From Pseudomonadota bacterium (lineage in GTDB: Bacteria; Bdellovibrionota_B; Oligoflexia; Oligoflexales; CAIYRB01): DNA of 36,973 nucleotides. Below, one piece after another: positions 10,873-30,002 of this stretch. The position numbers and the translations under genes are program-made. The stretch is taken from assembly GCA_026390435.1 (NCBI GenBank), contig JAPLFY010000038.1, positions 1-36,973 on the forward strand, given 5' to 3'. Numbering within the stretch: the stretch's first letter is position 1; each line of letters starts with the position of its first letter. Under the pieces are notes generated by a model. It searched no databases and was not told where the DNA came from. It was given only the letters and a program-made list of their open reading frames with translations.

Positions 10873-11484
10873 TTACTGACTATTAGACAACGTGACTTCT
10901 GTTGACTCGGGTTGTGAGACGGAACCGCTAAGAACACTGGTCGTCACTTTCTGTCCGCCTTTGACGCAATTTGGCCACACCTCGAAGGTCATTACGCCGC
11001 AGGAATCAGAGCACCACTCACTCGGAGGAGTCACGATACCGCCATATTTGGCAGGGTTTACATTACCGTCGCTGCCTTTAAAATCAGCAACTGTTTTATC
11101 CAAAGCCATGCTGCCATAGATCACTGGCTCGAAGCCAATGCCTGCGGCCGGTATGGTGGACGGGTTGGTATTAGCCGGGCCGGTAGTGGCTCCCCCCGCG
11201 GCCGCCGCTGGGCTTGAGAAGGTCGGCACTACATCCTGATAAATTTTGTAACGAACCGTGATTGGCGAACCTAATGCAACTTCCGACTTAGTCGAAAAAT
11301 CCCCAACGCAAGCAAGTGTAACCGCTTGTTGCAAGGCAACGATCTTAAATTCAGCACCTCCAATGCGTGAGCCCGAACAACTTAGCTTGCAAGCCCCACC
11401 AGCGCCCCCCTCGGGCTGAGCCGAACAACTGATCAGTGTGAGGACCAAACTAATCAGACACCTATTTTGGCTAAATTTACTCAT
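10873..11484 (-). CDS. Small Cys-rich lipoprotein overlapping the 3' end of pilQ
   Basis: A 203-residue product starting at an ATG (11484) that overlaps the pilQ stop by 8 bases. The frame is open to 11580, but that extension reads the Gly/Asn-rich tail of pilQ out of frame. From 11484 the product has a good lipoprotein signal: SLVLTLISC with Cys 20. The mature part has further Cys residues (CKLSCSGS, LACVGD, WCSDSCG, PNCVKGG), suggesting disulfides. No known domain is recognised. Position directly after pilQ suggests a pilus-associated outer-membrane lipoprotein, possibly a secretin helper; this is inference. Confidence 0.7.
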   Translation of the reverse strand: MSKFSQNRCLISLVLTLISCSAQPEGGAGGACKLSCSGSRIGGAEFKIVALQQAVTLACVGDFSTKSEVALGSPITVRYKIYQDVVPTFSSPAAAAGGATTGPANTNPSTIPAAGIGFEPVIYGSMALDKTVADFKGSDGNVNPAKYGGIVTPPSEWCSDSCGVMTFEVWPNCVKGGQKVTTSVLSGSVSQPESTEVTLSNSQ

Positions 11485-14400: not shown

Positions 14401-14971
14401 TCTCGATCCGGATGATCCCGTCCTTTTCAAGATAGTCGTATCCAACCCATTTCAATTTGGACGAAGCGGTTTTACTCACAGCTTGAGCAGCAATTGGTGG
14501 TGAAGGTAATGTGTTTGTTGCAGGAGGAACAGTCGAAGTAGTGGCGGGATTGGTACCTGCTGAGACCGCATTATTTGCTTGTTGCGGTTCACCTGGCAGC
14601 TGATTCACTAGGGCATTGGCGACTGTTGCCGGATTATTGGTGAGATTACTACTCGCCGTTGAATTAGCTCCTGCAGACCCGAACATTTCTGCATTACTAG
14701 GCGCTTCAGCATTAGTCACAACATTGGCAGGGGCACCTGCATCAGATTCAGCACCGTCGCCGACTTCAGCAAAGTCATCGCTCTCAGCGCCATTGCTATT
14801 AGCTTGATTTTCGCTAGTATTGAGATCGACATCACTCGCATTGTCGCCATCACCCGAACATGAGGTAGCGATGAACAGCGCAATTATAGAGGGCAGAAAG
14901 TTACATGTAACTCGCGCTCGCACCGAGGTAAGTGCGACTTGATCTCGCGCAAGATTCGGTTTTATGCTCAT
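11477..14971 (-). CDS. pilQ: Type IV pilus secretin PilQ, probable lipoprotein form
   Basis: Outer-membrane secretin channel for the type IV pilus, 1164 residues, much longer than the usual 700-900. Order: signal peptide with possible lipobox ATSC (Cys 38), Asn/Ala/Ser-rich stretch, AMIN domain (about 172-285, peptidoglycan binding), a long Pro/Asn/Ala-rich linker (about 290-665), a secretin/STN domain (about 672-755, GRPIRLEFRGAPLTEVIRML), a secretin N domain (about 770-845), the secretin pore domain (about 860-1090, with VPFLSSIPIIGALFRS), and a Gly/Asn-rich tail. AGGAGG 7 bases before the ATG fixes the start. The linker and tail are unlike typical PilQ. The possible acylated N terminus recalls liposecretins. 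Confidence 0.93.
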   Translation of the reverse strand: MSIKPNLARDQVALTSVRARVTCNFLPSIIALFIATSCSGDGDNASDVDLNTSENQANSNGAESDDFAEVGDGAESDAGAPANVVTNAEAPSNAEMFGSAGANSTASSNLTNNPATVANALVNQLPGEPQQANNAVSAGTNPATTSTVPPATNTLPSPPIAAQAVSKTASSKLKWVGYDYLEKDGIIRIEMVTEGQPKFQIFQERNRADQPELVVRFFNTVMRRKIRRDIDAREFRSPVAFVRLRPKAVDSSVDVIMTLRDVVRPHIFTKSGNVMLTFAIPDRYFGNNSIGDSPVTKAELLATANVLPLLAKGSDLPTNGSTPKPFINDPGAAVFKNTPMDAGTELSPVLAAPTDVQEILPQAAPASVQTQSTSVGADNVPPTTASPLTSPSAQGGSPTATQLIPAPLVQPQMTPQPPMGGMMMPTQQPTAIFLPAPTGPSMAPTANPTSTPAINTNGSKGPDEENPENFDNGKGESSETIDKFDVREKTSTTEDFVVTGSFTIAGVAQDDDFEGVQDAGNTATSNNVTGNNAASSNGAQNPNATTNANNIGNANAPTNNPNPAAGNGNILGNAAGPSNGNLSNGAAPAVNPAAAAPANTGGSEDLLGGNAAGGSAGANAAVQPPAAASVAAPPLMLTPPPAPKEPPIEGAPDLAGAESEGVSTGADASPGSLGGRPIRLEFRGAPLTEVIRMLSAESKVNFILPPDVGTKPIYLSLNGVPFNDALQAIIGANSLGMVSIGPNLVRIDTLERLAQDREQEEKRRKSEIKIRPTKLLVYRLSYAKAENAAKMLGEILGAAATEDKRVKVQVDARTNAVIINAPAGDLSTVKALLERIDLETPQVRIATRIVELQKNMANRFGISWGTPLNIDQGRGLGFGNLVFPNSMLSRFSIDAGGQQNLAGSSRFFFGSSNNSMALDLALSAEESRNTAEVLQSSNLIVEDNEKATIIAGRSDFFRPQVIAGAGGGAAAGNTLDEVKYNLTVQVKPHITSDGSVQMELDIQSDSPTPSTGGATAAKNNRQITTKLNRRSGETAVIGGIYNTERGKSVRGVPFLSSIPIIGALFRSSESNDSKRELMVMVTPTILTNTKSFDNAAAPASDVGFSPGASAAPADSPGLGGGGIATNLSGAGAANANANGGNFQGNGGSNANAGNGGNGGGNANE

Positions 14972-14996
14972 CTATCTGCCTCCTAAACACATTAGA

Positions 14997-16268
14997 CTAA
15001 AAAACTTTTCGAACTGCATTACCCGCATCTGGTGGAGCTTTTTCTGACGGAGCTTTTTCTGGCACATCTATTTTCTGTGCTGCATCTGATACCTTGTCCG
15101 ATTGTAAATCGCGAAATGCTGTCGCACCCTTTTCATCAGCATTAGGTTGCCCAGTCTGCTGACCTGCCTCTTGGGCTCCAAGAGCGCCTTTGGCTCCTTC
15201 ACCACCCATCAGCATCTTTTTAACCAAGTCCAGCACGCCTTCCTTGTCGGCAGCGGCAGGCCCACCAGCGGCACCTCCTGCTTCAGGCCCACCCACTGGC
15301 CCACCCACGGGAGCGCCTACGGGCGCAACTAAGAGCGGATTTACCGGATTTAATGGTTGATCACGCCCCGGGTCAAGGGCACCTGGGTTCAGTTTCTTAC
15401 GCTCCTCAATCATGATCTTTTCGAAATCAACATCATTTTCTTTCACCAAAGTGGTACGTGCGGCACCAGGTGTGAAGCGAATCTTGCGCGGGAGTTCCTC
15501 GGCCTCTTTTTTGCCCATTTGCATCTTTTGGTCCAGGTATCTGCGAGAACCATCCGGCGCCAACATAAACTCGCGCACATTGACAGACTCTTCGCCAATT
15601 GACGTGATCTTGCCCCCCCGATTACCGACCGGATCGCCAGTCTTGACGATGATACCCTGGCCGGATCCCACACCGGTTGCTGGAGCCAAAATCATTGCCT
15701 TACGCTCACCAGTAGTGAGCTGCCAAACACCTACAACATTAAGTTGATTTAGTTCGTACTGCTGTAGGGGGCTCACAATCGGAATTTCGATACTACCCGG
15801 TTGCGCCTTGAGCATCGCTCCTGAAACTTTAGTACCCTCAGGGCTAGTAATCAACGGCGGCAAGAACGGATCCGATTTCTCAGACCCAACGTAATGGAAG
15901 TCAGATGGATCCTCGGCAATCTCTTCAAACCGAGATCTAGCTGAGACATCTTTTGCGACACTTACCCCATCATCTGCAGCGTCGTTTTCATCAGGAACAT
16001 GAGCCACATCTTTTGCCGTCTTCGCTGGTCCTTGGGGCATTGCTGGCGCCTTTGGGCCATTCATGGATTTCGCCGCACTTGGCTGGGCCTCTCGTTTGTT
16101 CGCGGTTCGTTTTGCCAAGAGTTTTGCAGAATCGGCGTGTTTTGCCCAAGGTTGAGCCATGGCGCTTTGGATAGTTATGCCGAAGCCACCGATCCAAAGC
16201 AGCAGTCCTGCGATCATACGGATCGCCACTGATCTGGGTAAAGTTGGCTTTACTTGCACTTGGACCAA
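14997..16268 (-). CDS. pilP: Type IV pilus inner-membrane lipoprotein-like protein PilP
   Basis: PilP links the inner-membrane PilNO complex to the PilQ secretin. The PilP core lies at about residues 130-265: DPFLPPL, IVSPLQQYELNQLNVVGVW, RKAMILAP, GDPVGNRGGKITSI. It has a signal peptide ending AMA but no lipobox, whereas classical PilP is a lipoprotein. It carries a long extra C terminus (Gly/Pro-rich VGGPVGG segment plus charged tail) and is about twice the usual length. The frame opens with GTG at 16277, but GAGGAG abuts that codon. A TTG at 16268 has the same GAGGAG at 8 bases, so I prefer it. Confidence 0.85.
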   Translation of the reverse strand: MVQVQVKPTLPRSVAIRMIAGLLLWIGGFGITIQSAMAQPWAKHADSAKLLAKRTANKREAQPSAAKSMNGPKAPAMPQGPAKTAKDVAHVPDENDAADDGVSVAKDVSARSRFEEIAEDPSDFHYVGSEKSDPFLPPLITSPEGTKVSGAMLKAQPGSIEIPIVSPLQQYELNQLNVVGVWQLTTGERKAMILAPATGVGSGQGIIVKTGDPVGNRGGKITSIGEESVNVREFMLAPDGSRRYLDQKMQMGKKEAEELPRKIRFTPGAARTTLVKENDVDFEKIMIEERKKLNPGALDPGRDQPLNPVNPLLVAPVGAPVGGPVGGPEAGGAAGGPAAADKEGVLDLVKKMLMGGEGAKGALGAQEAGQQTGQPNADEKGATAFRDLQSDKVSDAAQKIDVPEKAPSEKAPPDAGNAVRKVF

Positions 16269-16286
16269 GCTAAACACTCCTCGGCC

Positions 16287-17123
16287 TTAAATTTTGGATT
16301 TTGCAATTTTAGGAGCAGTCATTAATTTTCCGACATTTTGAGCCGCTGAGCTTTCCGAATTATTAGTTTTCTTTTTGTCTTCGTCGGACTGATTGTTCGC
16401 TTTTGGGCCATTCTGCTGCTCGGGCTTACCCGCTCCATTTGCCTCAAGACTAGTCATTGACCTATATACAACTAACTCAAGATGGGTTTTGAGCCTCATA
16501 TTTGACCTTGCATCTTTGGTCTTTTGAAAAAGACTGCGCTTATCTTGATCAGAGTTAAATTTACCAGCAGAGTCTCCGTCCTGAAGCGCGGCTAAGTCGC
16601 GAGCTTCAGCCCTATTTATCTGCAGATTACGCAGAAAAATGGTCCCTTCTAAATGAACTAACTGATCCAGAAAGTGTGCAACTTGGTCAAAGGTTCCCAG
16701 CACTTCAATAACGATCGGCAACTCTACGAACGGATATGGCTGCTGATGCTTAACCTCTTCTGTAGGATCAAAGAGAGACATGATTACGCCATTGCCTTTG
16801 GCAAACGTAGCAACCTTCTCGAGAATAAGCTCAATTTGGTAGGTGTCGGGAAGTTTTTTCTTTGCTTTGACTAGTTGCTGTTGAGTGGATTGAAGCTGCT
16901 CTTCCAGCTTTGGCAAGTTCGAATGTTTTTGACTTGCTTGAGTGAACTTCTGCCGAGAATCATCGACCTGCTGTTGCAGAGTTTTTTGCGTCTCCTCTAG
17001 AGTCGCTCCTTCATCTAAGTAAATATATAGAGCGGGCAGCAAGCCTAAGGCGCCTACTAGTAGTAGTCGCCCCGCCAGCGGCAGCAGTTTGTATCTCTCT
17101 CGCAACTCCACCAGTGCAGACAT
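16287..17123 (-). CDS. pilO: Type IV pilus assembly protein PilO
   Basis: Inner-membrane partner of PilN in the pilus alignment complex. Short cytoplasmic N terminus, one transmembrane helix (about 17-36), coiled coil (about 40-92), then the periplasmic ferredoxin-like PilO domain (FVELPIVIEVLGTFDQVAHFLDQL). The C-terminal 50 residues are a Gln/Asn/Lys-rich tail not typical of PilO. AAAGGA precedes the ATG by 6 bases. Gene order pilN-pilO-pilP confirms identity. Confidence 0.9.
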   Translation of the reverse strand: MSALVELRERYKLLPLAGRLLLVGALGLLPALYIYLDEGATLEETQKTLQQQVDDSRQKFTQASQKHSNLPKLEEQLQSTQQQLVKAKKKLPDTYQIELILEKVATFAKGNGVIMSLFDPTEEVKHQQPYPFVELPIVIEVLGTFDQVAHFLDQLVHLEGTIFLRNLQINRAEARDLAALQDGDSAGKFNSDQDKRSLFQKTKDARSNMRLKTHLELVVYRSMTSLEANGAGKPEQQNGPKANNQSDEDKKKTNNSESSAAQNVGKLMTAPKIAKSKI

Positions 17124-17135
17124 CGCATTCCTTTG

Positions 17136-17939
17136 CTAAAAATTCCGACTTTCCTGATTTTTACGGAGATCGCCTAGACGCATAGCATCTTCATCTAAGT
17201 ACGGAGGATCACTGACAGCTGTCGGTGCGGCGTCGTTTTGCTTCACGGGCAGCTTTGTTGCTGGACGCTCAGCAAAACGGCCGTTAAGAATAAACGACGG
17301 GAATTTACCCATTTCAGCAAAATCCCCTGAACCCTGCGACTTGCCAATTTCAGCTTGCTTCAAGTCTAAGTCGGAAAAATAGATTAGAGTACGTGGGTCT
17401 GCAGCATCCGCATCCTGACTACCCGTCGAACGGATCGCCGTAATGTACTCTGCAGTCAATATATTGTCATAAGCCTGACCGTTTATTTCGAAAGTCTCAT
17501 CGTCCCCCATTTTTTCGGGATTTAACGCTGGTGCTCCAACTGGAGCATCGGATTTTTTGCCGTCTGAGCCAATTCTGAGCGAATTTAACCACACACCATC
17601 TGGTTTTAAATTATGAAGATGTTCAAGCACGATAAGACTTTTATATTTGGCCACACGCGACACAGTAATCGCTCGCAAAGCTTTTACCTTGGAATCTAAT
17701 TCAGAAATTTCAGATCCTAAGTTTTTGAAGCGTTCGAGGTCCGGCATTAGCTTGTTGATGCTCTCAGTTTTACTCTGCTGTTCAGCGGTTAACTTATCCA
17801 TCTCTTCTCGCAAACCATCGTGATAGTAGTTGACCCCAGCAAAAGCCATGATCCCAACCAACACAAGCACTACCAAGTCTGGTACATACCAATATTGGTT
17901 TTCGAGCTCGTCTATAGGGCAAAGGTTAACTTTAATCAT
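17136..17939 (-). CDS. pilN: Type IV pilus assembly protein PilN
   Basis: Starts MIKVNLCPIDE, matching the conserved PilN N terminus (I-N-L-x-P) that docks into PilM in the cytoplasm. One transmembrane helix (about 20-40), a coiled coil (about 42-90), and a periplasmic domain with a KPDGVWLNSLRI strand typical of PilN. At 267 residues it is longer than most PilN proteins, with an insertion around residues 128-190 and an extended C terminus. It follows pilM by one base and precedes pilO. Confidence 0.92.
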   Translation of the reverse strand: MIKVNLCPIDELENQYWYVPDLVVLVLVGIMAFAGVNYYHDGLREEMDKLTAEQQSKTESINKLMPDLERFKNLGSEISELDSKVKALRAITVSRVAKYKSLIVLEHLHNLKPDGVWLNSLRIGSDGKKSDAPVGAPALNPEKMGDDETFEINGQAYDNILTAEYITAIRSTGSQDADAADPRTLIYFSDLDLKQAEIGKSQGSGDFAEMGKFPSFILNGRFAERPATKLPVKQNDAAPTAVSDPPYLDEDAMRLGDLRKNQESRNF

Positions 17940-17940
17940 A

Positions 17941-18996
17941 TCAGCTGTGATCTCCTAAGCTGCGCAGGCTCAGGCCGACAGCCACCCCATAAAGCGGCCC
18001 TTGTGTAAGGATGTTTTCCATTTTAAAGATTTTGGAATTGATATTGATCCGTTGAAACGGATTAATAATTTGCACTGGGACGTGAAGAGTTGCAGCAATT
18101 GCGGCGTCTAGACCAAGAATGCGAGCTCCACCGCCAGTCAAAAAAACACTGGTGATGACACCGACGTTTTGACTCTCCTGGAGGAAATAATCAATTGTTC
18201 CCTGCAATTCGGCAACTAATTGCTCGTTAATCTCACCTATAATTTTATTCACTTCAGCTGGCAAATTCTCCTCGCCCTGTGACGACGAGACCTTGAGCGA
18301 CTCCGCATTGTCACGATCGACGTTTAGCGCCTCCTTCAGCCGTCGCGAGTACTCGTCGCCACCAATTGGAATCTCACGAGCGTAAACATAGTCGCCATTG
18401 AACAGCAGCGAGACTTGCGTCACAGAAGCCCCGATTTTGGCGACAGCGCTTAGTCCTTGAACGCTACCGTAGTTGTACTCAAACATGTTAACGGTGCTAA
18501 ACGCCGCGCATTCCACGACTCCAGTACGCATTCCAAGTTTTCGAATCAGAGCTATGTACTGCTCTACCATATCCCGCTTAGCTCCGACCAAAAGCACAGG
18601 CTGCGGCTTCCCTACTTCCACCGCACCTTCGACGGGGAAGAAATCTACGTAAATTTCCGACATATCAGCCTGAAATTGCTGTTCGGCTTCGTAATAAACC
18701 TGCTCAGCCAACTCGTTATCTTTAGCTAAGACGTCGATCCGCTTAATCAATACTGCACTGCCGCTTAAAGCTAACGCCGCCCTGCGCCCTTGCGGACGTA
18801 TTTTGAGCCGTTTAAGTAGCGTGCGTAAAGCTCCCTCGACGATTTCGGGATCTTGCATTAACCCGTCAACGACTGCCCCTGGGGGTAGCAATTCAAGCCC
18901 CATTTTGCGTAGTTTTTTTTGATTACCACCGGAGATCTCGACCACTTTAATGGACGATGACCCTATGTCGATGGCGACGAGAGGCCGACTGAACAT
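17941..18996 (-). CDS. pilM: Type IV pilus actin-like ATPase PilM
   Basis: Cytoplasmic actin/FtsA-fold protein that binds the PilN N terminus. The 351 residues show the phosphate-1 motif VAIDIGSSSIKVVEI (about 7-21), AKIGASVTQVSL (phosphate-2-like) and the adenosine motif VFLTGGGARILGLD. First gene of the pilMNOPQ run. The 208 bases upstream (18997-19204) should hold the promoter, but I do not see a convincing one. Only a weak GCGGAA precedes the ATG. Confidence 0.95.
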   Translation of the reverse strand: MFSRPLVAIDIGSSSIKVVEISGGNQKKLRKMGLELLPPGAVVDGLMQDPEIVEGALRTLLKRLKIRPQGRRAALALSGSAVLIKRIDVLAKDNELAEQVYYEAEQQFQADMSEIYVDFFPVEGAVEVGKPQPVLLVGAKRDMVEQYIALIRKLGMRTGVVECAAFSTVNMFEYNYGSVQGLSAVAKIGASVTQVSLLFNGDYVYAREIPIGGDEYSRRLKEALNVDRDNAESLKVSSSQGEENLPAEVNKIIGEINEQLVAELQGTIDYFLQESQNVGVITSVFLTGGGARILGLDAAIAATLHVPVQIINPFQRININSKIFKMENILTQGPLYGVAVGLSLRSLGDHS

Positions 18997-19730: not shown

Positions 19731-21086
19731 ATGATTTTCAACTCGATTCTGGAAACGATAGGCCGCACCCCCATGGTGAAGTTGAATCGTGTCGGTGCCA
19801 ACCTGCAGTGCAATCTTTATGCAAAGTGTGAATTTCTTAATCCCGGTGGTTCGATCAAAGACCGGATCGGTTACCAAATGGTGGCCGACGCTGAGCGCTC
19901 AGGGCGGATTAAGCCGGGCGATACACTCATCGAGCCTACCAGTGGTAACACCGGTATTGGCATTGCCCTTGCTGGGGCTATCAAAGGCTACCGCATTATT
20001 ATCACCATGCCGGAGAAGATGAGCCGCGAGAAGCAGGTGGTGCTGGAGGCACTTGGAGCTGAAATCATCCGTACTCCAACAGATGCTGCCTGGGATTCCC
20101 CAGAAAGCCATATCGGCGTCTCGAAACGTCTCCAAAAGGAGCTGCCGAATGCCCATATTCTCGACCAGTACTCGAACCCATCGAATCCAAACGCACATTA
20201 TAACGGCACCGGCGTCGAGATCCTCAGCGATATGAACGACAAGGTAGATATGGTAGTCATGTCCGCCGGCACAGGTGGCACCATCACAGGCGTGGCGCGC
20301 CGCATCAAGGAACGTCTACCCCATTGCCAAATCGTTGGCGTCGATCCAGTCGGCTCGATTTTGGCTGGGCCAGGGCCGATCCATTCTTACAAAGTTGAGG
20401 GCATTGGCTACGATTTCGTGCCCGATGTCTTCGATCGCAGTTTAGTCGACACCTGGGTCAAGACCTCCGATCGCGAGTCCTTTCAGTTAGCCAGACGCTT
20501 AATTTCCGAAGAGGGTTTACTCTGCGGTGGGTCTAGCGGCTCGGTGATATATGCGGCTTTGAAAGAAGCCAAAAATCTCTCGAAAGGCCAAAACTGCGTC
20601 GTCTTGCTGCCAGACGGCGTCCGTAACTATATGACTAAATTTATCGACGATAAGTGGATGCGCGACAACCGCTTCACAGGGGTCAGTGCCATCAACGGTA
20701 ACGTCGGACTCCTTCTACACTCTAAGTCGACGGTCATCAGCCTGGGACATACTGCAACAGTCAAAGATGCAATCGCCCTGATGACAGATCGTGGCATCTC
20801 GCAGATACCAGTAACCCACGCAGGTAGCCTCATCGGAATGGTCCGAGAAGACGACCTCCTGCGCTACCTATCCACCGGCGAAATTGATTCTACATCCACC
20901 CTGGGCGATCTCATGGATCGCAATGTTCCGACCGTCGAAGAATCCACGCCAGTGAGCGCACTTCAGGAGATCCTGATGCATTCCACTTGTGCCGTGGTGA
21001 TCGATGATCGTCGCCGGCCGTTGCATATTGTGACCAAAATCGATGTGGTCGACTGGCTAGTGAAAAACCCAAGGCAGCTCGCTTAA
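19731..21086 (+). CDS. Cystathionine beta-synthase with C-terminal CBS domain pair
   Basis: PLP enzyme expected to condense serine and homocysteine to cystathionine. The 451-residue protein has the PLP Lys in GGSIKDR (K43), EPTSGNTGIG, GTGGTITG and LLCGGSSGS. Residues 1-325 closely follow the human CBS catalytic core as I recall it (IPT-type block EIIRTPTDAAWDSPESHIGV, DQYSNPSNPNAHY, KVEGIGYDFVP, RNYMTKFIDDKWM). The N-terminal haem domain is missing. Residues about 335-451 form two CBS modules that may bind an adenosyl ligand. AAAGGG lies 7 bases before the ATG. Ties to ahcY, which makes homocysteine. Could also act as cysteine synthase. Confidence 0.92.
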   Translation: MIFNSILETIGRTPMVKLNRVGANLQCNLYAKCEFLNPGGSIKDRIGYQMVADAERSGRIKPGDTLIEPTSGNTGIGIALAGAIKGYRIIITMPEKMSREKQVVLEALGAEIIRTPTDAAWDSPESHIGVSKRLQKELPNAHILDQYSNPSNPNAHYNGTGVEILSDMNDKVDMVVMSAGTGGTITGVARRIKERLPHCQIVGVDPVGSILAGPGPIHSYKVEGIGYDFVPDVFDRSLVDTWVKTSDRESFQLARRLISEEGLLCGGSSGSVIYAALKEAKNLSKGQNCVVLLPDGVRNYMTKFIDDKWMRDNRFTGVSAINGNVGLLLHSKSTVISLGHTATVKDAIALMTDRGISQIPVTHAGSLIGMVREDDLLRYLSTGEIDSTSTLGDLMDRNVPTVEESTPVSALQEILMHSTCAVVIDDRRRPLHIVTKIDVVDWLVKNPRQLA

Positions 21087-21089
21087 AGA

Positions 21090-21114
21090 GTCGGGCGTCG
21101 GGCGTCAGGGTATG
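21090..21114 (+). repeat. Heptamer-type repeat after cbs
   Basis: Directly after the cbs stop, two tandem copies of GTCGGGC and a third variant lead into GGGTATG. Positions 21095-21114 match 18 of 20 bases, in inverted orientation, with 25387-25406, and share the heptamer core with the array at 25827-25896. Confidence 0.6.
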
Positions 21115-21116
21115 AA

Positions 21117-21159
21117 GCGGACACATAGGTAACAAAACAGACCGGAGACATAGGTGACA
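21117..21159 (+). repeat. Tandem 18-base motif, likely insertion-sequence terminal remnant
   Basis: Two direct copies, GCGGACACATAGGTAACA (21117-21134) and CCGGAGACATAGGTGACA (21142-21159), agree at 15 of 18 positions with a 25-base period. From memory such ACATAGGTRACA repeats occur at ends of some IS481-type elements. No transposase is nearby, so only an end may remain. Confidence 0.45.
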
Positions 21160-21234
21160 CAATTAGGCCGTCCTACAGCACCTCTGACTACTCAGACACC
21201 AACCTGAAGAACGACCACAAGATCCTCGCGGCTT

Positions 21235-22404
21235 CTAAGTCTTAGACCGCAGGAATAACTCGTTCAAGGCATCTCGCCAGTGAATGTGAAGAACTCCGTC
21301 TTCGACGCTTCTGATTTCGTCCTGTGAGACCACCATCAATATTGGATTTTCGAAGTCATCACGGAATCCCGTCAGGTGCCGAGCATGGGTCGTGCTTTGT
21401 AGCAAGCTCGATTTGATCTCTATCAGGACTGATGATTGGCCCGGGCGCTCAACAATGAGGTCTATCTCTGCTCCGGCCTTAGTTGTTAGATAGGAGAAGC
21501 GGTAGCCTAGCTCTAAATATTGATTTAGCTTCACACATTCCATCACAAAAAACTGCTCAAATAGGTGCCCGAATTCACCTGTAGATTGGTTGAGTTTCGT
21601 ACCAACCGCCAGAGATAAAGTGCGCGCAATGCCAGTGTCCACAAAATATAGGCGAGGCGCTGCGTGAACCTGCTGCCGTACCGAGCGCGAGTAAGGTTCA
21701 ATGAGGACAGCGAGGTGCGTTTCCTCGAGGATTTGAAAGTAGGTTTGCACCGTCTTCACATCAACCCCGACGACAGCTGCGATTCGCGAATAATTGATCA
21801 AACGGGCATTTTGTTGGGCTGCGACGTCAAGAAATTTGCGAAAGGGCTCGAGCTTGCGCACCAAGTGCTCCGCCCATACTTCTTCTTTTAGATAAGTCTG
21901 CCCGTAGGCGCGCAGGAAACGAATGATGGCCTGATCACCCGTCCGCTGCCACACAGCAGGCAGTAACCCGAAGCTGAGTGCTTTTTGAAAATCAAACTTG
22001 TCGCCGAGTTCTGCAAAGCTGAATGGGTACAAGTTGAAATACAGGGCTCTACCAGCCAAAAGATTGGCTCCAGCCATCTTAAGTTTGCGTGCACTAGAGC
22101 CCGTGAGGATAAATTTCTGTGGTACCTTCTTGTCCTCGATCAGATGATGGACGACGTCACAAAGCTTAGGGACTTTTTGAATCTCATCGATGAAGACGTG
22201 AGTGATCTGATCGCTCAGCGCTGTGACTTCGCCAATTAAGAGGTCAGGATCGCGAGCGAGCCTCTCTTCGTGACGAGAGAGTAACAGGTTAATGGTGTAG
22301 GCATCGGGGAACAAGGACTTGATCAATGTGCTCTTGCCGACTCCTCTAGCCCCGAATAGAAAAAAACTCTCGTCATTTGGTATACTTACAAGTCTTTTGA
22401 GCAA
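21235..22404 (-). CDS. AAA_14 / DUF4143 family ATPase
   Basis: A 389-residue P-loop ATPase of the mobile ExeA-like family found scattered across bacteria and archaea. Walker A GARGVGKST (18-26), Walker B HVFIDEIQKVP, sensor ILTGSSARKLK, then the DUF4143 part with a winged helix (about 195-240) and a PD-(D/E)xK-like core (GAEIDLIVERPG...VLIEIKSS). Its biological role is not settled. It begins with TTG, with GGAG 9 bases upstream inside a large palindrome. Probably acquired; neighbours are lineage-specific. Confidence 0.88.
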   Translation of the reverse strand: MLKRLVSIPNDESFFLFGARGVGKSTLIKSLFPDAYTINLLLSRHEERLARDPDLLIGEVTALSDQITHVFIDEIQKVPKLCDVVHHLIEDKKVPQKFILTGSSARKLKMAGANLLAGRALYFNLYPFSFAELGDKFDFQKALSFGLLPAVWQRTGDQAIIRFLRAYGQTYLKEEVWAEHLVRKLEPFRKFLDVAAQQNARLINYSRIAAVVGVDVKTVQTYFQILEETHLAVLIEPYSRSVRQQVHAAPRLYFVDTGIARTLSLAVGTKLNQSTGEFGHLFEQFFVMECVKLNQYLELGYRFSYLTTKAGAEIDLIVERPGQSSVLIEIKSSLLQSTTHARHLTGFRDDFENPILMVVSQDEIRSVEDGVLHIHWRDALNELFLRSKT

Positions 22405-22445
22405 GACTATACTCCAAATTTAGCGCCTAAGTATGGAGTATAGTC
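22405..22445. promoter_or_regulatory. Palindrome covering the translation start region of the DUF4143 gene
   Basis: Perfect 12-base inverted repeat GACTATACTCCA (22405-22416) and TGGAGTATAGTC (22434-22445) around 17 bases, touching the TTG start codon. The GGAG ribosome-binding site of the gene lies inside one arm. It could be an operator, an RNA hairpin hiding the ribosome-binding site, or a mobile-element-type terminal sequence. Confidence 0.65.
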
Positions 22446-23053
22446 TATGGTTGGGCGGTTGACAATGGCATCGTTAAAGCCACCTAAATCATCCCACCCA
22501 TGCCGCCAGTTGCAAATGGCCCCGGCCGCGATTGGTGCCAATTAGTATTGGTCAATTGGGAGCTGCTATGCGCCGCCGGCAATCTTCTCTTCACAGCACG
22601 TCGCGCATTTGAGCCGGATAAATACAGAATCTTTACTAATATCCGCAAAAATTGGGCACATCAAACCCGATAGCCACCCCCGATCTTACGGACGTAATTG
22701 CCGGCATTAGGCCCAAAGGCGATTTTGCCGCTAATCGAAGCGGCAAGTAGGTGGGCAAGGAAACTTACTCCGAATCACGATTGGCATCTTTCATGTCAAT
22801 GAATGAGGCCAAGACCCATTCAGCGCCATCTGGTTATTCTTTCGAGGGCGTTGCGGCTTTCAATGATTTCTGAGGGACCGGGGTGACAAAGTCGCTTCGT
22901 ATTTACACACAAGCGGTGACGCAACTCGAAATTGACTTTGTTCGAACCGACCTAATTACCTGTTATGATTCATGGAATCAATTTTTTTAATATTATCTAA
23001 ATTTTTTTTCAAAAATGCCGAAATAAAGAAATCACATTAAACGAAGCATCTAG
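22446..23053. other. Gene-free stretch upstream of lipoprotein pair
   Basis: About 600 bases with no frame that reads as a known protein on either strand. The left part (22446-22620) has a coding-like base composition and may be an eroded gene or element, but I cannot identify it. The right part (22970-23050) is very AT-rich. A possible extended -10 box TGTTATGAT lies at 22961-22969. Confidence 0.5.
22961..22969 (+). promoter_or_regulatory. Possible extended -10 promoter element for the lipoprotein pair
   Basis: TGTTATGAT fits a TGn-TATNAT extended -10 box about 85 bases before the first lipoprotein start, next to an AT-rich region. No good -35 at standard distance is seen. Confidence 0.3.
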
Positions 23054-24136
23054 ATGCGAAAAATTAAAATTCTGTGGCAAGAGCACATGAAATTATTACG
23101 AAGACCAGCTATGTTTAGAGGCATAATCAATTCAAGAAATGCGCTGGGAATAGTTGTATTCACGCTGTCTGTCAGCCTGTCGGCAATCACCATAAGCTGC
23201 TCGAGTGGTCGGAGTACTGTTTTTTCGGAGAATACAGTTTCCCCATCTTCGGCCGCGTTATTTCAAGCCTATAATCAAAATATAAATTCTGCCGACTTTG
23301 CGACACAGCTTAATAAGGAGCTCGAGCAACCCGATGTATCGCCACGCGCGGAACTGCCGGAATCAGGCCAGATTGCAGGTCGGAACTTTCCGGACCTCAG
23401 GCTGAGATTGAAAAGAATGATAGCCGACTCGGTGCCAGGCCCAAAACTTAAAAGTAACTTGAGGACTTTTTTTCGTGCTGAAGGTGTCCTAGGACTGCAA
23501 CTAACAGTAGAAGATTTTCAACTGGCAGAGGGTTATATTGGTGCAAAGCTTGACGCCGTCAACAGCCCAGTTGCTGAAGCCGAGCTAATCGCCAAATTCC
23601 CCCCTAAACAGGTCATCCGAGCGCTTTACACGATCACTGTGATACGCGCTCTAGATCGCCACCACGACAAGTCTGCATCCTTGGCTCTAGGTGAAAAAGG
23701 GATAAACGCGGAAGTTAGTGCCAAGATTAACCTAGATTTTGCAGCTACGATCGCTGCTATTTCTGGCGCATTCAATAGTGGTATCACTTGCAATTCAATG
23801 GTCAAGCCATGTCGTGACGCACAAAAAAATTACATTAAAAATGTTGGCAAGTTCAACGATAACGCTGTCGACATAGATATATGTGCACCCCAAACACACG
23901 ACCAGTGCACTTGGGAAAAAAATGGCAAGGACCTAGAATTTATAGCTGATATCTGCAAAAAATTTCAACTTTGGAAGTGTGAGTGCAAGCAAGAGAACGA
24001 TGGGCCAGCACCTGCAGCTAATTCGTCTGCTGGGTGCAGTGCCGTGCAAATTATCGCTGCTCAAAATCGACCAATAGACAGGACAGCGGTCGATGCTGCA
24101 TGCGTCGCCATCAAGGAATGTGCCGGCGCAAAGTAA
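23054..24136 (+). CDS. Cys-rich putative lipoprotein, paralogue A
   Basis: Unrecognised 360-residue exported protein. The hydrophobic signal lies at about 30-48 and ends TISC-SS (Cys 49). The lipobox is weak because Thr is at -3. An internal ATG at 23111 would give a more usual signal peptide, so the start is uncertain. The mature part has no known domain. It shares with the next gene an early TVFS/TTFS motif, LPESxxxAG, an FQLAExY motif in the middle, CxxAQxNxxKN, a WKCECK/WSCDC block and a Cys-rich end ACVxxxxxxxxCG. It is a tandem paralogue of unknown role, with AT-rich codon use compared with the flanks. Confidence 0.65.
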   Translation: MRKIKILWQEHMKLLRRPAMFRGIINSRNALGIVVFTLSVSLSAITISCSSGRSTVFSENTVSPSSAALFQAYNQNINSADFATQLNKELEQPDVSPRAELPESGQIAGRNFPDLRLRLKRMIADSVPGPKLKSNLRTFFRAEGVLGLQLTVEDFQLAEGYIGAKLDAVNSPVAEAELIAKFPPKQVIRALYTITVIRALDRHHDKSASLALGEKGINAEVSAKINLDFAATIAAISGAFNSGITCNSMVKPCRDAQKNYIKNVGKFNDNAVDIDICAPQTHDQCTWEKNGKDLEFIADICKKFQLWKCECKQENDGPAPAANSSAGCSAVQIIAAQNRPIDRTAVDAACVAIKECAGAK

Positions 24137-24195
24137 AATTAAGGCATTAGTGTTCTTCTGTGTTGGGTCTACAAGATAAATTCAAGGCACAGTCA

Positions 24196-25227
24196 ATGAC
24201 CAAAGCAATCCGACTACTGTATATCCTTGTTGTGGAGATCGGCCTGACAGCACTGGCAATTGGCTGCTCAAGTCCAGCCTCTACAACTTTTTCAGACCAA
24301 TCCTACTCACAAAACGCCACAATCCTTTTTGAAAGTTACAGATCGAATGCCGAGAACGCCGCATTCAACAAGGTTTTGGCAGGTTTACTGGCTGCTCCTG
24401 ACCTAAAAGCACATCAAAATCTACCTGAGTCGGAGACCGTTGCTGGCATCTTGGTTCACGACTTCAACAAGAAAGTGAAAAAAATATCATCTGCTGGCAA
24501 CTTTAACTTTTCCGGAACACTTGGGGAATTTTTTTCACTGACGAAAATTAAGGGATCAAAGCTAAATATTAAGGATTTTCAACTAGCAGAGGAATACGCT
24601 GTTGATCTTTTGTGGAGTATTGATGACGAAGTAAAAATGAAACTACTTTACCGGAAGTATACCCCGGAGCAGATGAACAAATCAGCGTATGTCGCCGTGA
24701 TTACATCTGCTTTAACATCGGCAAATACAAAAAAAGACTCATTAAGTCTAGCCTCAGCCAGCGATATTGTATGCTACCTATTTACGCCATGTGCCCTAGT
24801 TAAAGGTACCGGGGAGTTAATCAAGGCGGTATCCAAAAAGCGAACCTGCAACATGCAGGCAGGTAGTTGTAAATCAGCGCAAGAAAATCTGAAAAAAAAT
24901 GATAATAAGAAGGATGATATAGTCCAGAACAACGACGCTTGCATGAATATCAGCCCGCCAAGCTGTACTCACGGTATCGCTAGGAGTATAGGAGAAATAG
25001 CCGGTGGTTATCAATGCTCGTGGAGAACGTGGAGCTGTGATTGCCGTGAAAAGTACGTAAAAGTAAATGATGACTATAAACACAGTAATGATTCGACGGA
25101 GCATTGCGAGACTGAAGATAAAAATAAAAATCCGCCCGAGCTGGTAGAGCTCAATAGGGATGCTTATAAAATGGCCTGCGTCGAGCAAGAATCTGCACTG
25201 AGAGCCTGTGGTCAAAATTTCAAGTGA
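24196..25227 (+). CDS. Cys-rich putative lipoprotein, paralogue B
   Basis: Unrecognised 343-residue paralogue of the preceding gene. The frame opens with GTG at 24160. I chose the ATG at 24196 because AAGG lies 8 bases before it and the protein then begins MTKAIRLLYILVVEIG, a textbook signal peptide ending AIGC (Cys 24). Shared landmarks with paralogue A are TTFS, LPESETVAG, FQLAEEY, CKSAQENLKKN, WSCDCREK and ACVEQESALRACG. About ten Cys lie in the second half, so disulfides are likely. It is 59 bases after paralogue A and probably co-transcribed. Confidence 0.68.
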   Translation: MTKAIRLLYILVVEIGLTALAIGCSSPASTTFSDQSYSQNATILFESYRSNAENAAFNKVLAGLLAAPDLKAHQNLPESETVAGILVHDFNKKVKKISSAGNFNFSGTLGEFFSLTKIKGSKLNIKDFQLAEEYAVDLLWSIDDEVKMKLLYRKYTPEQMNKSAYVAVITSALTSANTKKDSLSLASASDIVCYLFTPCALVKGTGELIKAVSKKRTCNMQAGSCKSAQENLKKNDNKKDDIVQNNDACMNISPPSCTHGIARSIGEIAGGYQCSWRTWSCDCREKYVKVNDDYKHSNDSTEHCETEDKNKNPPELVELNRDAYKMACVEQESALRACGQNFK

Positions 25228-25386
25228 ATTCAGCTGATTTTGGTTCGCTGGTACAACCGAGCCATCAACATGGGCGAGATGGATCAGGCTCGACGCTGAA
25301 CTCTCCCTGCTCGTATCTAAGCGATGCACGGGGCGGAGTCTCGTAGTCTAGGCCGACAGGCTTTAGGTAGCGCCTTACCTGATACC

Positions 25387-25406
25387 CATACCTCGACGCC
25401 CGACGC
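25387..25406 (-). repeat. Inverted partner of the 21095-21114 repeat
   Basis: The minus strand reads GCGTCGGGCGTCGAGGTATG, matching 21095-21114 (plus) at 18 of 20 bases. The pair brackets the DUF4143 gene and both lipoprotein genes, about 4.3 kb. Confidence 0.55.
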
Positions 25407-25414
25407 TGACCTCG

Positions 25415-25834
25415 CTAAACGCAGTCCCCGGCCCACAACCTTTTTAGAAACGTTTCCCAAGGCAAGATTTCAATCCCATCCTCGGTCCGGCGTTCAGTCT
25501 CCACGTCACAAACTAAGAGAAACCGTTTAAAAATACGCTCTTCAGCGAGGGCACGAAGTCCTTTGAGATGCTTAGCTGTTGGGTTACTGGTCGTAGCAAT
25601 GCTTTCGACAAGACTTGCGACTTCGTCATCAGTGAGCCGGTCTAGATTTCGAAATTTCGCAAAGTCACCGTATCTGCTGTAAACACTGTCGATACAGATG
25701 ATGTGTAGGTGGGGGTTTAAGTTTAGTGCCGATCCCCAGCGCTGGGTGAAAGCGATACTTCCTGGTGTGGCATCTCTGATGCCAGCAGCATGGGCCTTGG
25801 CGATGTAGTACCGATGAATCTCGGCATCGGGCAT
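25415..25834 (-). pseudogene. Fragment of an IS91-type (Y2) transposase
   Basis: A 139-codon frame whose first part (residues 8-60) contains FTQRWGSALNLNPHLHIICID, the conserved His-rich block of IS91-family transposases. The N-terminal zinc-binding part and the two catalytic Tyr region are missing. The first codons (MPDAE) are encoded by the heptamer repeat at 25827-25896, so the 5' end has been cut and joined to repeat DNA. A non-functional remnant. About 100 residues with LTDDEVASLVESI follow before the stop. Confidence 0.75.
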
Positions 25835-25896
25835 CGGGCATCGGGCATCGGGCGTCGGGCGTCAGGCGTCAGGCGTCAGAAATCGGAAATCGGAAA
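25827..25896 (+). repeat. Tandem heptamer array
   Basis: Ten consecutive 7-base units: TCGGGCA x3, TCGGGCG x2, TCAGGCG x2, TCAGAAA, TCGGAAA x2, with partial units at both ends. Every unit starts TCRG and the last three bases change stepwise. It lies between the transposase remnant and the cNMP-binding gene. Confidence 0.9.
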
Positions 25897-25923
25897 TCAG
25901 CACAGTTCCTCCGGAAGAACCCT

Positions 25924-26427
25924 TCATTCCTTAGCTTCGGCCCGGCGCAACGCGTGCTTCCACAGTTGTTGCTGGGCCGTGATGTAATCCTGATTCACGC
26001 GGCGCATCCTGACAGCAAGCTCTTCTGAACAGGCACGGTAAAAGCGCAGCGGCAAATCTCCGGATAATTTTTCAAGCCACCCATGAAAGCGGTCGGCATT
26101 GAGAAAGAACAACTGACAAGCCGTTTCAGCTATGACGGTTGCTGATCTCGGCGCCTGGTCCACAAGACTCAATTCGCCGAAATTAGCTCCCTCGTCCAGC
26201 AATGCCAGACGGCTCATAGATGTAGAACCTGGCTCATTACGGTAAACGGAAACTTGCCCGGACATGATCACAAAGAGTCCACGCGTTGGCTCGCCCTCGA
26301 TAATGACATGAGCGTGTGGACGCACGTGGATCGACTCTCCGAGATGCCAAAGAGCCTCTATCTCTTCCTTAGTGAAGCGCGCAAATATCTTGATGGAAGA
26401 GAGACTAAATGCTGATTGGTCGCTCAT
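25924..26427 (-). CDS. Stand-alone cyclic-nucleotide-binding domain protein
   Basis: A 167-residue cytoplasmic protein with one cNMP-binding domain (about 10-125). The phosphate-binding cassette FGELSLVDQAPRSATV (83-98) has the Glu and Arg that hold the cyclic phosphate, so ligand binding looks intact. There is no helix-turn-helix as in Crp and no kinase or channel part. A helical C terminus (about 125-167, VNQDYITAQQQLWKHALRRAEAKE) may bind a partner. The ATG overlaps the stop of the FliG-like gene (ATGA), which argues for a linked function: cAMP or c-di-nucleotide input to that protein. Ends close to repeat DNA. Confidence 0.88.
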   Translation of the reverse strand: MSDQSAFSLSSIKIFARFTKEEIEALWHLGESIHVRPHAHVIIEGEPTRGLFVIMSGQVSVYRNEPGSTSMSRLALLDEGANFGELSLVDQAPRSATVIAETACQLFFLNADRFHGWLEKLSGDLPLRFYRACSEELAVRMRRVNQDYITAQQQLWKHALRRAEAKE

Positions 26428-28898
26428 GCTGCTACTCCAGACAGCACGCCTGTATCACCTCTTTCCATAGTCTCCGCTTCCAGCGGTTCCGCCTCACTAC
26501 CGAACACTAGATCATTCAGGGTCAACAAGTTGATTGAGCCACTCTTAGCAAGGTTACGAATCCGACTGGTCACCTTCATCTCAACAAACTGATAATTCTG
26601 CTCACCACCGGTGAAGTTTTCTAAATCTTCCACCCAACTGGAGGCTAATTCAGGCGGTGCTTTGCTCAGCAGCAGTTCACGAATATGCTCTGGTGAGCCC
26701 GCGAGGAAGCAGAGTAAATCTTCACGTTCCATACCAAGGACAATCTCCAGCAAGTGGCCATCTTTGAGGAACGGCATCAGCTCGACAGTGACCAATTTAA
26801 GCTTAATGCCTCGCGCACCCTCAGGATTAGTGCGCATGAGGTTATGCATGAGCGAGCGCTGTTCATCGAGTGTGGCCTTGTCCATAAGATCGAACAGAAT
26901 CTCGGATGAACGAAGATTTTCCACATCAAATTCAGGTCTAGCCGTAACTTTGCGCTGCAGCACCACAGCAATGTTGGCAAGAAATTCCTTAGGAATTGGT
27001 TCACCGCGACAAAGCTCCTGCATCAAGTCGACTTTCGGCTGACCAGCATACATATCAAATACAGACCGGCGCCGTTTCGGATCGAGCTGAGTCATGCAGA
27101 TCGCTTGGACTTGCGGTTTCTCATCGATGATCAAGTTGTAAATTTGCACTGCATCTAACTGTAGAAGGAAATCAAATCGCTCAACAGAGCGCCTCGTTAA
27201 AACACGGATTTCATTGGCAGTTACGCGGGTTTTTAGCGTTGTTAAGAGGCGATTTTCCTGCTCTGCCGTAAAATCAAACGATGACTTGTGATAGTACTCA
27301 CTAAGTTCATAGAGTTCGCGTTGAAGATTGGGGTCGGCAAGCAGTTCAAAGACTACTATTTGCCCGAAGATATGGACATAGCGTGCCGTTGCCTCGACAC
27401 CATCTTCGGTCAATAGTCGTGAGAAGGTCTCTTTCGCAAGCCGTGGTTGCTCGACAAAAATCCGGCTAAGTTCAGTACGCAGCTCCTCATTTTTGAGGCG
27501 CAAACCGATATCTCGACGCACATCAATATCAGCCTCTTTACGCCCAGCCTCGCCCCCTTCAGAGGCACGCGGGCGATCTTCCGCAGCGGCAGCTGGTGCA
27601 AGACGAGCGCCCCCCATTCCATTGGCCTGGGCTTCATACATCATCATTTTCGCGTCGCGGTTAGCGTGCGCATATTTCAGAAGAATAAATAAGATAATAC
27701 CCGTAAGCAGAATAAATCCGGCTAGGTACGCCATCCATTGCCAGATGGGAAGGCGCTGCTCTTTGTCGGCTGCAGCTGCAGCCAATCGCTCACTCGAGTA
27801 CTTGTCCAGCTCAGTCTTAGTTAGAGTGGAGTCTTTAGTCAGCGTCTTGGTATTGGTATTGGTGTTGGTATTGAGTTGACCCTGAATTTTGCTGTTACTC
27901 TCCTCACGCGCACTTTCTTTACTGCTACTAGTGTCTCTCGAATTGTTGTTGGAGCTATTCGCACTCGTGCTTGTGGTGCTGCTATTATTCGTGGTCAAAA
28001 TCTCTTTCGTTCCCGCCATCTCACGAAAGATTTTCAGAGTCTGGCGCAGTTTCTCCAAACCATACGGATCATCCCCGATTTTTTTGTCTTTATCCTGCTG
28101 GCGAGCAAATGACTCAGGAAACGGTGCCACATCTACGGATAAGTTAACAGGCTGAGCAAAGCGCGTTTTAGCCTGAATTAGCTTAGTAATGCGTGCCCGA
28201 GTAGTGGCTGGCAAATTTTCATTCATCGCGACTTCAATCTCAATGCCATTCACATGGAGAATCGCGTCACCGCTGCGATCACGCACCAACTCCTCGCCCG
28301 GATATCCCGAAGCTTCATCGGGTGTCACTAGTTTGCCATCGACCAATACCTGGGATAATACGCAGTCTTCAGGGCAATATAGATCAATGACCTTATTGAC
28401 CGCCGCTGTCATGCGTCTTTCGAGTTCATGCCTAAGTTGTTCTTCTTTCGCTGCTGACTGACCAAATTGAGGAATGGTTACTGGACGCCAGACCATGTCC
28501 ACAGGGACTCCCAGATCCTGAACATTGGTCTGGAGGATTTTCATCAGCCGATCGCGATTGATACTGCTAACGCGGTCATCGACCTGCATGCCCACTACAA
28601 CACGACTGACGTTAATAATCTTTGCCGCGGGTGTACCCTCGACCCCCTCGAAGCCAAGATCGTCGGACTCAATATTGTCTTCATCGAGCGTCACGTTTAC
28701 GTCGACTATGGAACAGGCTTCCTTACAATACTGGGACAGCAGCGGCGTGAGGCGGTTCTTCACGTTCTGCACCATCTCAAGTTTAACTCGCTCCAGACTA
28801 GAAGCCTGTGCCAACGCCTGGTGACTGCCGATGACGGCCATAAATATGGCTGCCAGAATGGCGCGCAGTAGTCCTGGAATGGCATCAGATCTGATCAC
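26424..28898 (-). CDS. Membrane-anchored FliG-like protein with periplasmic repeats (FliF/FliG-like fusion)
   Basis: An 824-residue protein. Order: signal peptide (about 8-31), periplasmic repeat 1 (about 35-140, C58-x3-C62), repeat 2 (about 155-262, C175-x3-C179), a Ser/Thr/Asn linker with NTNTNTNT (about 302-365), one transmembrane helix (384-408), a cytoplasmic linker, a helix LSRIFVEQPRLAKETFSRLL (478-497) resembling the FliF C-terminal tail, then FliG middle-domain-like (about 578-650, with EKPQ at 593-596 for the FliG EHPQ motif) and FliG C-terminal-like (about 662-790). Repeat 2 ends VDVAPF, recalling the FliF strand before its second membrane helix. No other flagellar gene is visible. 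Coupled to a cNMP-binding gene. Confidence 0.75.
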   Translation of the reverse strand: MIRSDAIPGLLRAILAAIFMAVIGSHQALAQASSLERVKLEMVQNVKNRLTPLLSQYCKEACSIVDVNVTLDEDNIESDDLGFEGVEGTPAAKIINVSRVVVGMQVDDRVSSINRDRLMKILQTNVQDLGVPVDMVWRPVTIPQFGQSAAKEEQLRHELERRMTAAVNKVIDLYCPEDCVLSQVLVDGKLVTPDEASGYPGEELVRDRSGDAILHVNGIEIEVAMNENLPATTRARITKLIQAKTRFAQPVNLSVDVAPFPESFARQQDKDKKIGDDPYGLEKLRQTLKIFREMAGTKEILTTNNSSTTSTSANSSNNNSRDTSSSKESAREESNSKIQGQLNTNTNTNTKTLTKDSTLTKTELDKYSSERLAAAAADKEQRLPIWQWMAYLAGFILLTGIILFILLKYAHANRDAKMMMYEAQANGMGGARLAPAAAAEDRPRASEGGEAGRKEADIDVRRDIGLRLKNEELRTELSRIFVEQPRLAKETFSRLLTEDGVEATARYVHIFGQIVVFELLADPNLQRELYELSEYYHKSSFDFTAEQENRLLTTLKTRVTANEIRVLTRRSVERFDFLLQLDAVQIYNLIIDEKPQVQAICMTQLDPKRRRSVFDMYAGQPKVDLMQELCRGEPIPKEFLANIAVVLQRKVTARPEFDVENLRSSEILFDLMDKATLDEQRSLMHNLMRTNPEGARGIKLKLVTVELMPFLKDGHLLEIVLGMEREDLLCFLAGSPEHIRELLLSKAPPELASSWVEDLENFTGGEQNYQFVEMKVTSRIRNLAKSGSINLLTLNDLVFGSEAEPLEAETMERGDTGVLSGVAA

Positions 28899-28997: not shown

Positions 28998-30002
28998 CTA
29001 CTTACCTAGACTCTTCTTAACCGACTTTTCCAACTCAACAAGATCGTGACTTTTCACGCGACGACCATTGATGAAAATGGCTGGCGTTCCGACAATGCCG
29101 ATTCGCTCGCCTTCGGCTTTGCTCTTAGTGACGCGCGCTATTGCAGCTGCGCCCTTTAGACAGTTCGCAAACTTTACTTCATCCAGCTTCAAGGACTTTG
29201 CCAAATTTGTCGGAGCATCGCTAGAACCTAGCTCCTGCTGCTTTTCAAAGGCGAGATCATGAAATTCCCAGTACTTATGCTGCTCGCCGGCGCAGTACGC
29301 ACCTTGCGCCACGGACTCCGACGACACGCCCCTGATCGGAAAATCAGCAAAGACAAACTTAACTTGCGTCGGATACTTCTTCACCAGGGCTTCGAGAGTC
29401 GGTGCGACCGTTTTACAATGAGGGCACTGGTAGTCAGCAAACTCAACTATTGTAACCTTAGCGGCAGCTGCACCTTGCGTCGGCAGGTCCTTAACATCGA
29501 TCGAGACGACTGGAGCTTCTGGTTCCTTCAAAAGCGGCACGAACTTACCATCTGCTTTTAATTTTGCTAGCAGCGCTTCCCGCTTCTCTTTTGCCGCCTG
29601 ATCTTTTAGCAGCGTCTTAATCTCACCAGAGACCTTATCTAAGGTGTAACCGGGAGGTATGCGGCTCTTGTTTTGTTCAAACCAATCGGCAGCCTGCTTG
29701 TCGGTAGGCTCGGCGACATTAAGCACCGCTGCCTCAACTTCACTCTTCGACTTGCCGGTCTTTTTCGCCTCGTCACCAAAATACACGTTTAGGGCTGCCT
29801 GATGCGCTAAGAGCAGTCTGCGATTGTATTCATCACTCTCGATGTCAAAGAGAGCCTGCTGATCAGCTACGGATAGATCGGTAGCCTTGTACACTTTACC
29901 GCCAAATTTAAAGATATCCGCCTTGGCTGAGCTAGCGAGCAGTAGGTTGCTCGAAATCGCAATGAGGATACACGCTTTGCTCACTGTACGCCCTGCGTTC
30001 AT
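28998..30002 (-). CDS. DsbA-like periplasmic thiol oxidoreductase (Thioredoxin_4 type)
   Basis: A 334-residue periplasmic protein with a signal peptide (about 9-28), a helical N-terminal region (about 40-155) recalling SurA/PpiC N domains, and a DsbA-type thioredoxin domain from about 180: YQCPHC (C193, C196) and cis-Pro loop VGTPAIFING (P307). Two further Cys (237, 281) are typical of the Thioredoxin_4 branch. The CPHC centre is that of an oxidant such as DsbA. GAGG lies 6 bases before the ATG. It sits 99 bases upstream of the FliG-like gene, whose periplasmic repeats have C-x3-C pairs, a plausible substrate. Confidence 0.9.
   Translation of the reverse strand: MNAGRTVSKACILIAISSNLLLASSAKADIFKFGGKVYKATDLSVADQQALFDIESDEYNRRLLLAHQAALNVYFGDEAKKTGKSKSEVEAAVLNVAEPTDKQAADWFEQNKSRIPPGYTLDKVSGEIKTLLKDQAAKEKREALLAKLKADGKFVPLLKEPEAPVVSIDVKDLPTQGAAAAKVTIVEFADYQCPHCKTVAPTLEALVKKYPTQVKFVFADFPIRGVSSESVAQGAYCAGEQHKYWEFHDLAFEKQQELGSSDAPTNLAKSLKLDEVKFANCLKGAAAIARVTKSKAEGERIGIVGTPAIFINGRRVKSHDLVELEKSVKKSLGK

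Follow-up and report, generated by a model that had tools for sequence, protein, structure and literature searches.

Co-inheritance of a FliG-like membrane protein and a stand-alone cyclic-nucleotide-binding protein suggests a signal-controlled accessory module in flagellated bacteria

The window, by which we mean the whole analysed stretch of 36,973 nucleotides, contains two overlapping genes, one for a large membrane protein with FliG domains and one for a small protein with a cyclic-nucleotide-binding (CNB) domain. This raises the question of whether the two proteins work together and, if so, in the flagellum or in another system of the cell envelope. The genes and their junction are:

25924-26427, minus strand: stand-alone cNMP-binding (CNB) protein, 167 aa from ATG (open reading frame, Pfam PF00027)
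26424-28898, minus strand: FliG-like membrane protein, 824 aa from GTG (open reading frame, Pfam; family found in 28 of 58 genomes)
26424-26427, minus strand: ATGA overlap of the FliG-like stop and the cNMP start (junction sequence)

The ATGA overlap reported in the initial annotation was seen both in the reading frames and in the junction sequence, with the cNMP start lying inside the stop of the FliG-like gene. The end then given for the cNMP gene, 26430, is 3 bases past the ATG, and the reading frame ends at 26427. Comparison with the sister genome G002 gave dN/dS values of 0.07 for the FliG-like gene and 0.08 for the cNMP gene, and thus both look like real genes under constraint.

The small protein is a stand-alone CNB protein, as originally described. 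It matched the Pfam family cNMP_binding (PF00027) with 65.7 bits (cut-off 27.5), and Pfam found this domain alone in the 167 aa, with no helix-turn-helix and no PilZ domain. The lack of a DNA-binding part was thereby corroborated; the CRP equivalog was not reached either (37.6 vs 266 bits), and the helix-turn-helix typical of CRP/FNR proteins was not found. Two elements of the protein are strongly conserved:

26134-26181, minus strand: phosphate-binding cassette FGELSLVDQAPRSATV, with F-G-E and P-R invariant in 28 of 28 orthologues
25948-26010, minus strand: family-specific C-terminal helix motif (R.R..N.DYI..Q..LWKYAL), with Q152, L155 and W156 invariant in 28 of 28

The binding cassette is intact, in agreement with the first description: F83, G84, E85, S87, D90, P93, R94 and A96 are identical in all 28 aligned orthologues, which includes the conserved Glu (E85) and Arg (R94) of the PF00027 family, and the residue following the Arg is Ser in 27 of the 28. 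Profile matches in the PDB were to the regulatory domains of PKA and PKG and to bacterial CNB proteins, and since they span all of these, cAMP and cGMP are not distinguishable as the ligand. The C-terminal helix that follows the CNB domain is a candidate contact surface. CbpA of Pseudomonas aeruginosa is presumably also a stand-alone CNB protein without a DNA-binding part; the present protein differs from CbpA-like proteins in having its own family-specific C-terminal helix and in being co-inherited with the FliG-like protein.

The large protein consists of a periplasmic and a cytoplasmic part:

28824-28889, minus strand: N-terminal signal/anchor segment (hydropathy)
28449-28796, minus strand: periplasmic repeat 1, alpha-beta-beta-alpha-beta, C58 and C62 invariant (alignment, hydropathy, model)
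27999-28457, minus strand: periplasmic repeat 2, homologous to repeat 1, C175 and C179 invariant (HHalign, alignment, model)
27660-27746, minus strand: second transmembrane helix (hydropathy; helix of residues 356-389 in the model)
26940-27146, minus strand: FliG middle domain (PF14841, 36.2 bits, cut-off 25)
26526-26843, minus strand: FliG C-terminal domain (PF01706, 28.9 bits, cut-off 23.3)

The cytoplasmic part is clearly related to FliG. The FliG_M and FliG_C domains were detected in 25/25 family members at E<=0.01, while Pfam found no FliG N domain in any of these 25. Profile matches of this part in the PDB were to FliG, down to E 2e-16, and when its model (pLDDT 48) was searched with Foldseek all ten hits with E<0.001 were FliG. 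The protein nevertheless differs from canonical FliG, with which it shares the M and C domains, in being anchored in the membrane, in its altered M/C motifs and in falling below the canonical FliG equivalog TIGR00207 (48.6 vs 226.7 bits for the window protein). In the seven family rows compared with the canonical FliG of their own or related genomes, EHPQ, GGxG, MFxF and the charged torque helix are altered, although the GG is kept in the rows of family f12. These motifs are, as we take them, the FliM-binding and torque motifs of FliG. The partner named FliG-like in the initial annotation thus has FliG M and C domains above the cut-offs, but it is a membrane protein with RBM-like repeats and not the FliG of the C ring, and the genome has canonical FliG proteins and FliF in addition. 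The protein ends in [V/A/I/L]-Ala (window 26427-26432) in 27 of 28 FliG-like proteins, a 29th row, the N-terminal fragment of one gene, having been left out, and the tail preceding these residues is variable. Such an end may be likened to a degron of the ssrA type or to a tail for peptide docking.

In the periplasmic part, bounded by the N-terminal segment and by the helix that hydropathy places at about residues 385-413, the two repeats are homologous to each other (HHalign probability 98.7). Their four cysteines (C58/C62 and C175/C179) are invariant in the family, and each repeat likely holds a disulphide. An AlphaFold2 model built from three sequences (pLDDT 49, pTM 0.25) shows the order alpha-beta-beta-alpha-beta in both repeats, and in a Foldseek search of the PDB with this model all 4 hits with E<0.001 were FliF, with a large whole-chain rmsd. 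With VIA the MS ring was matched with Z 10.1 over 97 residues and an rmsd of 2.9; the first eight rows were FliF (Z 9.4-10.1, repeat 1), with unrelated folds at about 9.3 and the model at pLDDT 49. Homology to FliF was not found by sequence: when the repeats were compared with 13 FliF sequences by HHalign the probability was <2, the score of 21.6 compares with 21.2 for the best of 40 column-shuffled controls, and YscJ_FliF_C (PF08345) was not matched in the 25 FliG-like members. It is thus the predicted fold that supports the likeness to FliF. The repeats likely have an RBM-like topology, and it is RBM3 of the MS ring protein FliF that the predicted repeat topology and fold resemble, without a PF08345 match or profile similarity.

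The nearest precedent in the accessible text of the literature is the FliF-FliG fusion of Chlamydiaceae (PMC4768692). Going by its description there, this fusion and the FliG-like protein have in common a signal segment, about two RBM-type periplasmic domains, a second transmembrane segment and homology to FliG M. The chlamydial fusion is about 330 aa long and occurs in bacteria thought to be non-flagellated, and in the text available only FliG M homology is reported and no cNMP partner is described (PMC4768692). Unlike the Chlamydiaceae, as far as that text covers them, the FliG-like carriers studied here have kept canonical FliG and nearly all of them canonical FliF.

The occurrence of the two genes was determined in 58 genomes of the window's class, with a FliG-like profile of 25 full-length proteins (the partial frames L054 of G014 and L058 of G040 being left out) and a cNMP profile of 28 proteins. 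The FliG-like gene, called at E<=1e-20, was found in 28 of the 58 genomes. The line for cNMP orthologues was set in a gap between the scores of the orthologues (at least 207 bits) and those of other CNB proteins (at most 80.6 bits), again giving 28 genomes. Both genes were present in 26 genomes and both absent in 28, while two had only the FliG-like gene (G040, G056) and two only the cNMP gene (G024, G042; Fisher p 1e-11). Among genomes at least 90% complete the numbers were 21 with both, 0 with FliG-like only, 1 with cNMP only and 18 with neither, and for 30 genera 18, 1, 0 and 11, respectively. The observed concordance of 54/58 was not reached in 100,000 shuffles of labels within families, of which the best gave 50. 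Families f1, f6, f8, f11 and f12 each hold carriers and non-carriers, even inside the window's genus. The pairing proposed from the window was thus found to be conserved in related genomes, and with the cNMP gene in 26 of the 28 FliG-like carriers, homologues regularly without it were not seen.

The four discordant genomes include incomplete ones. G040 is 75% complete with its FliG-like gene at a contig end, G056 is 83% complete in 1060 contigs, and G042 is 66% complete with a contig of just 3.9 kb carrying the gene of the DsbA-like neighbour. G024 also lacks this neighbour, which G013, G035 and G042 have, and its FliG-like region may be unassembled. A mirror-tree comparison was discarded as evidence for the pair, as the value for FliG-like and cNMP (0.885, n=25) was not specific when set against that for FliG-like and FliF (0.926, n=17). 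We consider a functional association of the two genes highly probable.

The surroundings of the genes bear on the nature of this association:

28998-30002, minus strand: DsbA-like protein with a thioredoxin domain; its position upstream of the FliG-like gene is conserved (Pfam, neighbourhoods)
19731-21086, plus strand: synthase of the CysK type with CBS domains; its place beside the cNMP gene is conserved (neighbourhoods)
21087-25925, no strand: insertion of 4.8 kb that separates the cNMP gene from CysK and is missing from the sister genome G002
11477-18996, minus strand: cluster of the pilMNOPQ type (PilM identified with Pfam PF11104; the names N, O, P and Q are presumed from the gene order)

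In the recurrent order, pilQPONM occupies one strand, CysK lies on the opposite strand with cNMP after it, and a block of DsbA-like, YkuD, RluD, DnaJ-HTH and ParA genes, which includes the FliG-like gene, completes the arrangement. In G029 the pil, CysK, DsbA-like, YkuD, RluD, DnaJ and ParA genes are kept, and the FliG-like and cNMP genes are missing exactly between CysK and DsbA-like; G003, which belongs to the window's genus, retains CysK and DsbA-like with other genes between them. DsbA-like and CysK were therefore rejected as obligate partners, both being retained where the pair is lost. The insertion codes for an AAA_14/DUF4143 ATPase and for two hypothetical proteins that resemble each other by eye, and also contains a Y2_Tnp-like fragment, and at its edge, directly downstream of the cNMP gene, there is a tandem repeat of about 7 bases (CATCGGG/CGTCGGG/CGTCAGG, window 25820-25893).

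Translational coupling, which had been proposed for the pair, is present in the window but is not general. The cNMP gene starts at, or at most 4 bases after, the FliG-like stop in the same direction in 6 of the 26 pair genomes, five of f1 (G000, G002, G004, G005, G006) and one of f9 (G014). In three further pair genomes, of f2 and f6 (G007, G011, G022), the two genes adjoin convergently. In other families the cNMP gene follows CysK, with the FliG-like gene either convergent to it or distant, and since CysK-cNMP is the more widespread arrangement, the ATGA coupling in f1 would be a derived, local feature. It is conceivable that the proteins belong to one pathway and never touch, the sensor acting elsewhere and both genes being lost along with a common way of life. 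As such a pathway would allow, many genomes carry them unlinked (in G013 about 258 kb lie between them), and their adjacency is partly inherited synteny with CysK and the pil genes. Adjacency in two orientations, the placing of the sensor in the FliG-like operon in f1 and the near one-to-one joint absence while neighbours remain speak against it, and we regard it as improbable.

The position of the cNMP gene also suggests service to the type IV pilus, with the membrane protein forming a basal ring or clamp of the pilus and with pilus activity gated by the sensor. The cNMP gene is near pilM in 17 of 28 neighbourhoods, compared with 9 of 28 where it is beside the FliG-like gene; in 16 of 28 a pilM homologue is within about 2.1 kb of it, the 6.9 kb between the two in the window being due to the insertion, and the PilM-CysK order is retained even where the pair is lost. 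However, PilM_2 was matched in 58/58 genomes, with or without the pair, so that the pilus does not predict the pair and was rejected as the cause of its pattern. In the four neighbourhoods of f12 that were examined, no pil genes lie close to the cNMP gene, and the FliG domains of the membrane protein point to the flagellum. With the eight FliG-less genomes described below all having PilM_2 matches and none the pair, a role in the pilus seems hardly probable.

Canonical FliG was found in 50 of the 58 genomes, including all 26 with the pair, and canonical FliF (PF08345) in 47 of 56; the window's own genome has two other canonical FliG-type genes and FliF. None of the 8 genomes without canonical FliG has either gene of the pair (p 0.0055 for pair absence by random draw with phylogeny ignored), which gives the pair the appearance of an accessory of cells with flagella. 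As 24 of the 50 genomes with canonical FliG lack the complete pair, it is dispensable for flagella. The divergent FliG motifs, the canonical FliF and FliG that the genome has in addition, and the family's own conserved C-terminal tail together with its four invariant periplasmic cysteines could also point to a membrane machine or scaffold distinct from both flagellum and pilus, which would re-use folds of the FliF and FliG type and whose FliG part would no longer make stator contact. Such a machine is unlikely given the absence of the pair from all eight FliG-less genomes; in the neighbourhoods examined no further dedicated component was found near either gene, and the occurrence of the second FliG paralogue does not follow that of the pair.

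We tentatively interpret the pair as a cyclic-nucleotide-responsive accessory membrane module, a second-messenger-controlled part of the flagellum, and would give this reading a little less than an even chance. Both genes would encode one module. The large protein would be an inner-membrane FliF/FliG-like chimera, probably forming a ring or oligomer, in which a transmembrane helix joins two RBM-like periplasmic domains to the FliG M and C domains in the cytoplasm, and the small protein would be its soluble sensor of cAMP or cGMP. When ligand is bound, the sensor may alter the way in which the FliG-like domains in the cytoplasm interact with the flagellar motor or with what surrounds it; physical contact, ring formation, ligand, target and direction of control are what we infer here. 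It is rather doubtful whether the chimera is a new kind of ring or rotor element in the membrane that works beside the ordinary rotor and is directly gated by cyclic nucleotides, with the small protein as its dedicated subunit. Class III cyclases were matched 12 times in the window's genome and in 54 of the 58 genomes, commonly also where the pair is absent. We counted for the flagellar module the co-occurrence, the score gap, the gap in G029, the adjacency, the restriction to genomes with FliG, the FliF and FliG fold matches and the class III cyclases, and against it the dispensability, the altered FliG motifs, the lack of a profile link to FliF, the low pLDDT, the proximity to pilM, the unspecific mirror-tree and the presence of cyclases without the pair.

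The known direct control of the flagellar rotor by second messengers is mainly exerted by c-di-GMP and PilZ proteins. If our interpretation is true, a sensor of cAMP or cGMP with a FliG-like membrane protein as its dedicated partner would provide a second route of rotor control, and a FliF/FliG-type fusion beside canonical FliF and FliG would show how modules of the MS ring and C ring recombine. By analogy, the logic would be similar to that of the flagellar brake YcgR (PMC10140304), the common trait being a small protein that senses a second messenger and would act on a partner of the FliG type. The present protein differs in having a CNB instead of a PilZ domain and a dedicated partner, and its contact with this partner is putative; a braking action as in YcgR-type proteins, which bind FliG or MotA and slow rotation, would be hypothetical here. 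No description of a cNMP protein paired with a FliG-like protein was found in the literature texts searched. The almost constant joint inheritance of the two genes suggests that they form a signal-controlled module of flagellated bacteria that has not been described before. The close co-inheritance makes the pair directly testable.

Other FliG-type genes were also noted. On contig C149 of the window's own genome (L123, 12071-13069, minus strand) a second canonical-type FliG of 332 aa is located beside ABC exporter-like genes and not flagellar genes; it was rejected as a third partner, as it is present in the pair-less G001 and G003 and in others. G021 has a FliG of 334 aa at a distance of 1.5 kb from its FliG-like gene. 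The sister genomes G001 and G003, which are without the pair, contain open reading frames of 581 and 579 aa (L126 on contig C36 and L127 on contig C87, respectively) with a weak likeness (20-22%) to the TM-FliG part.
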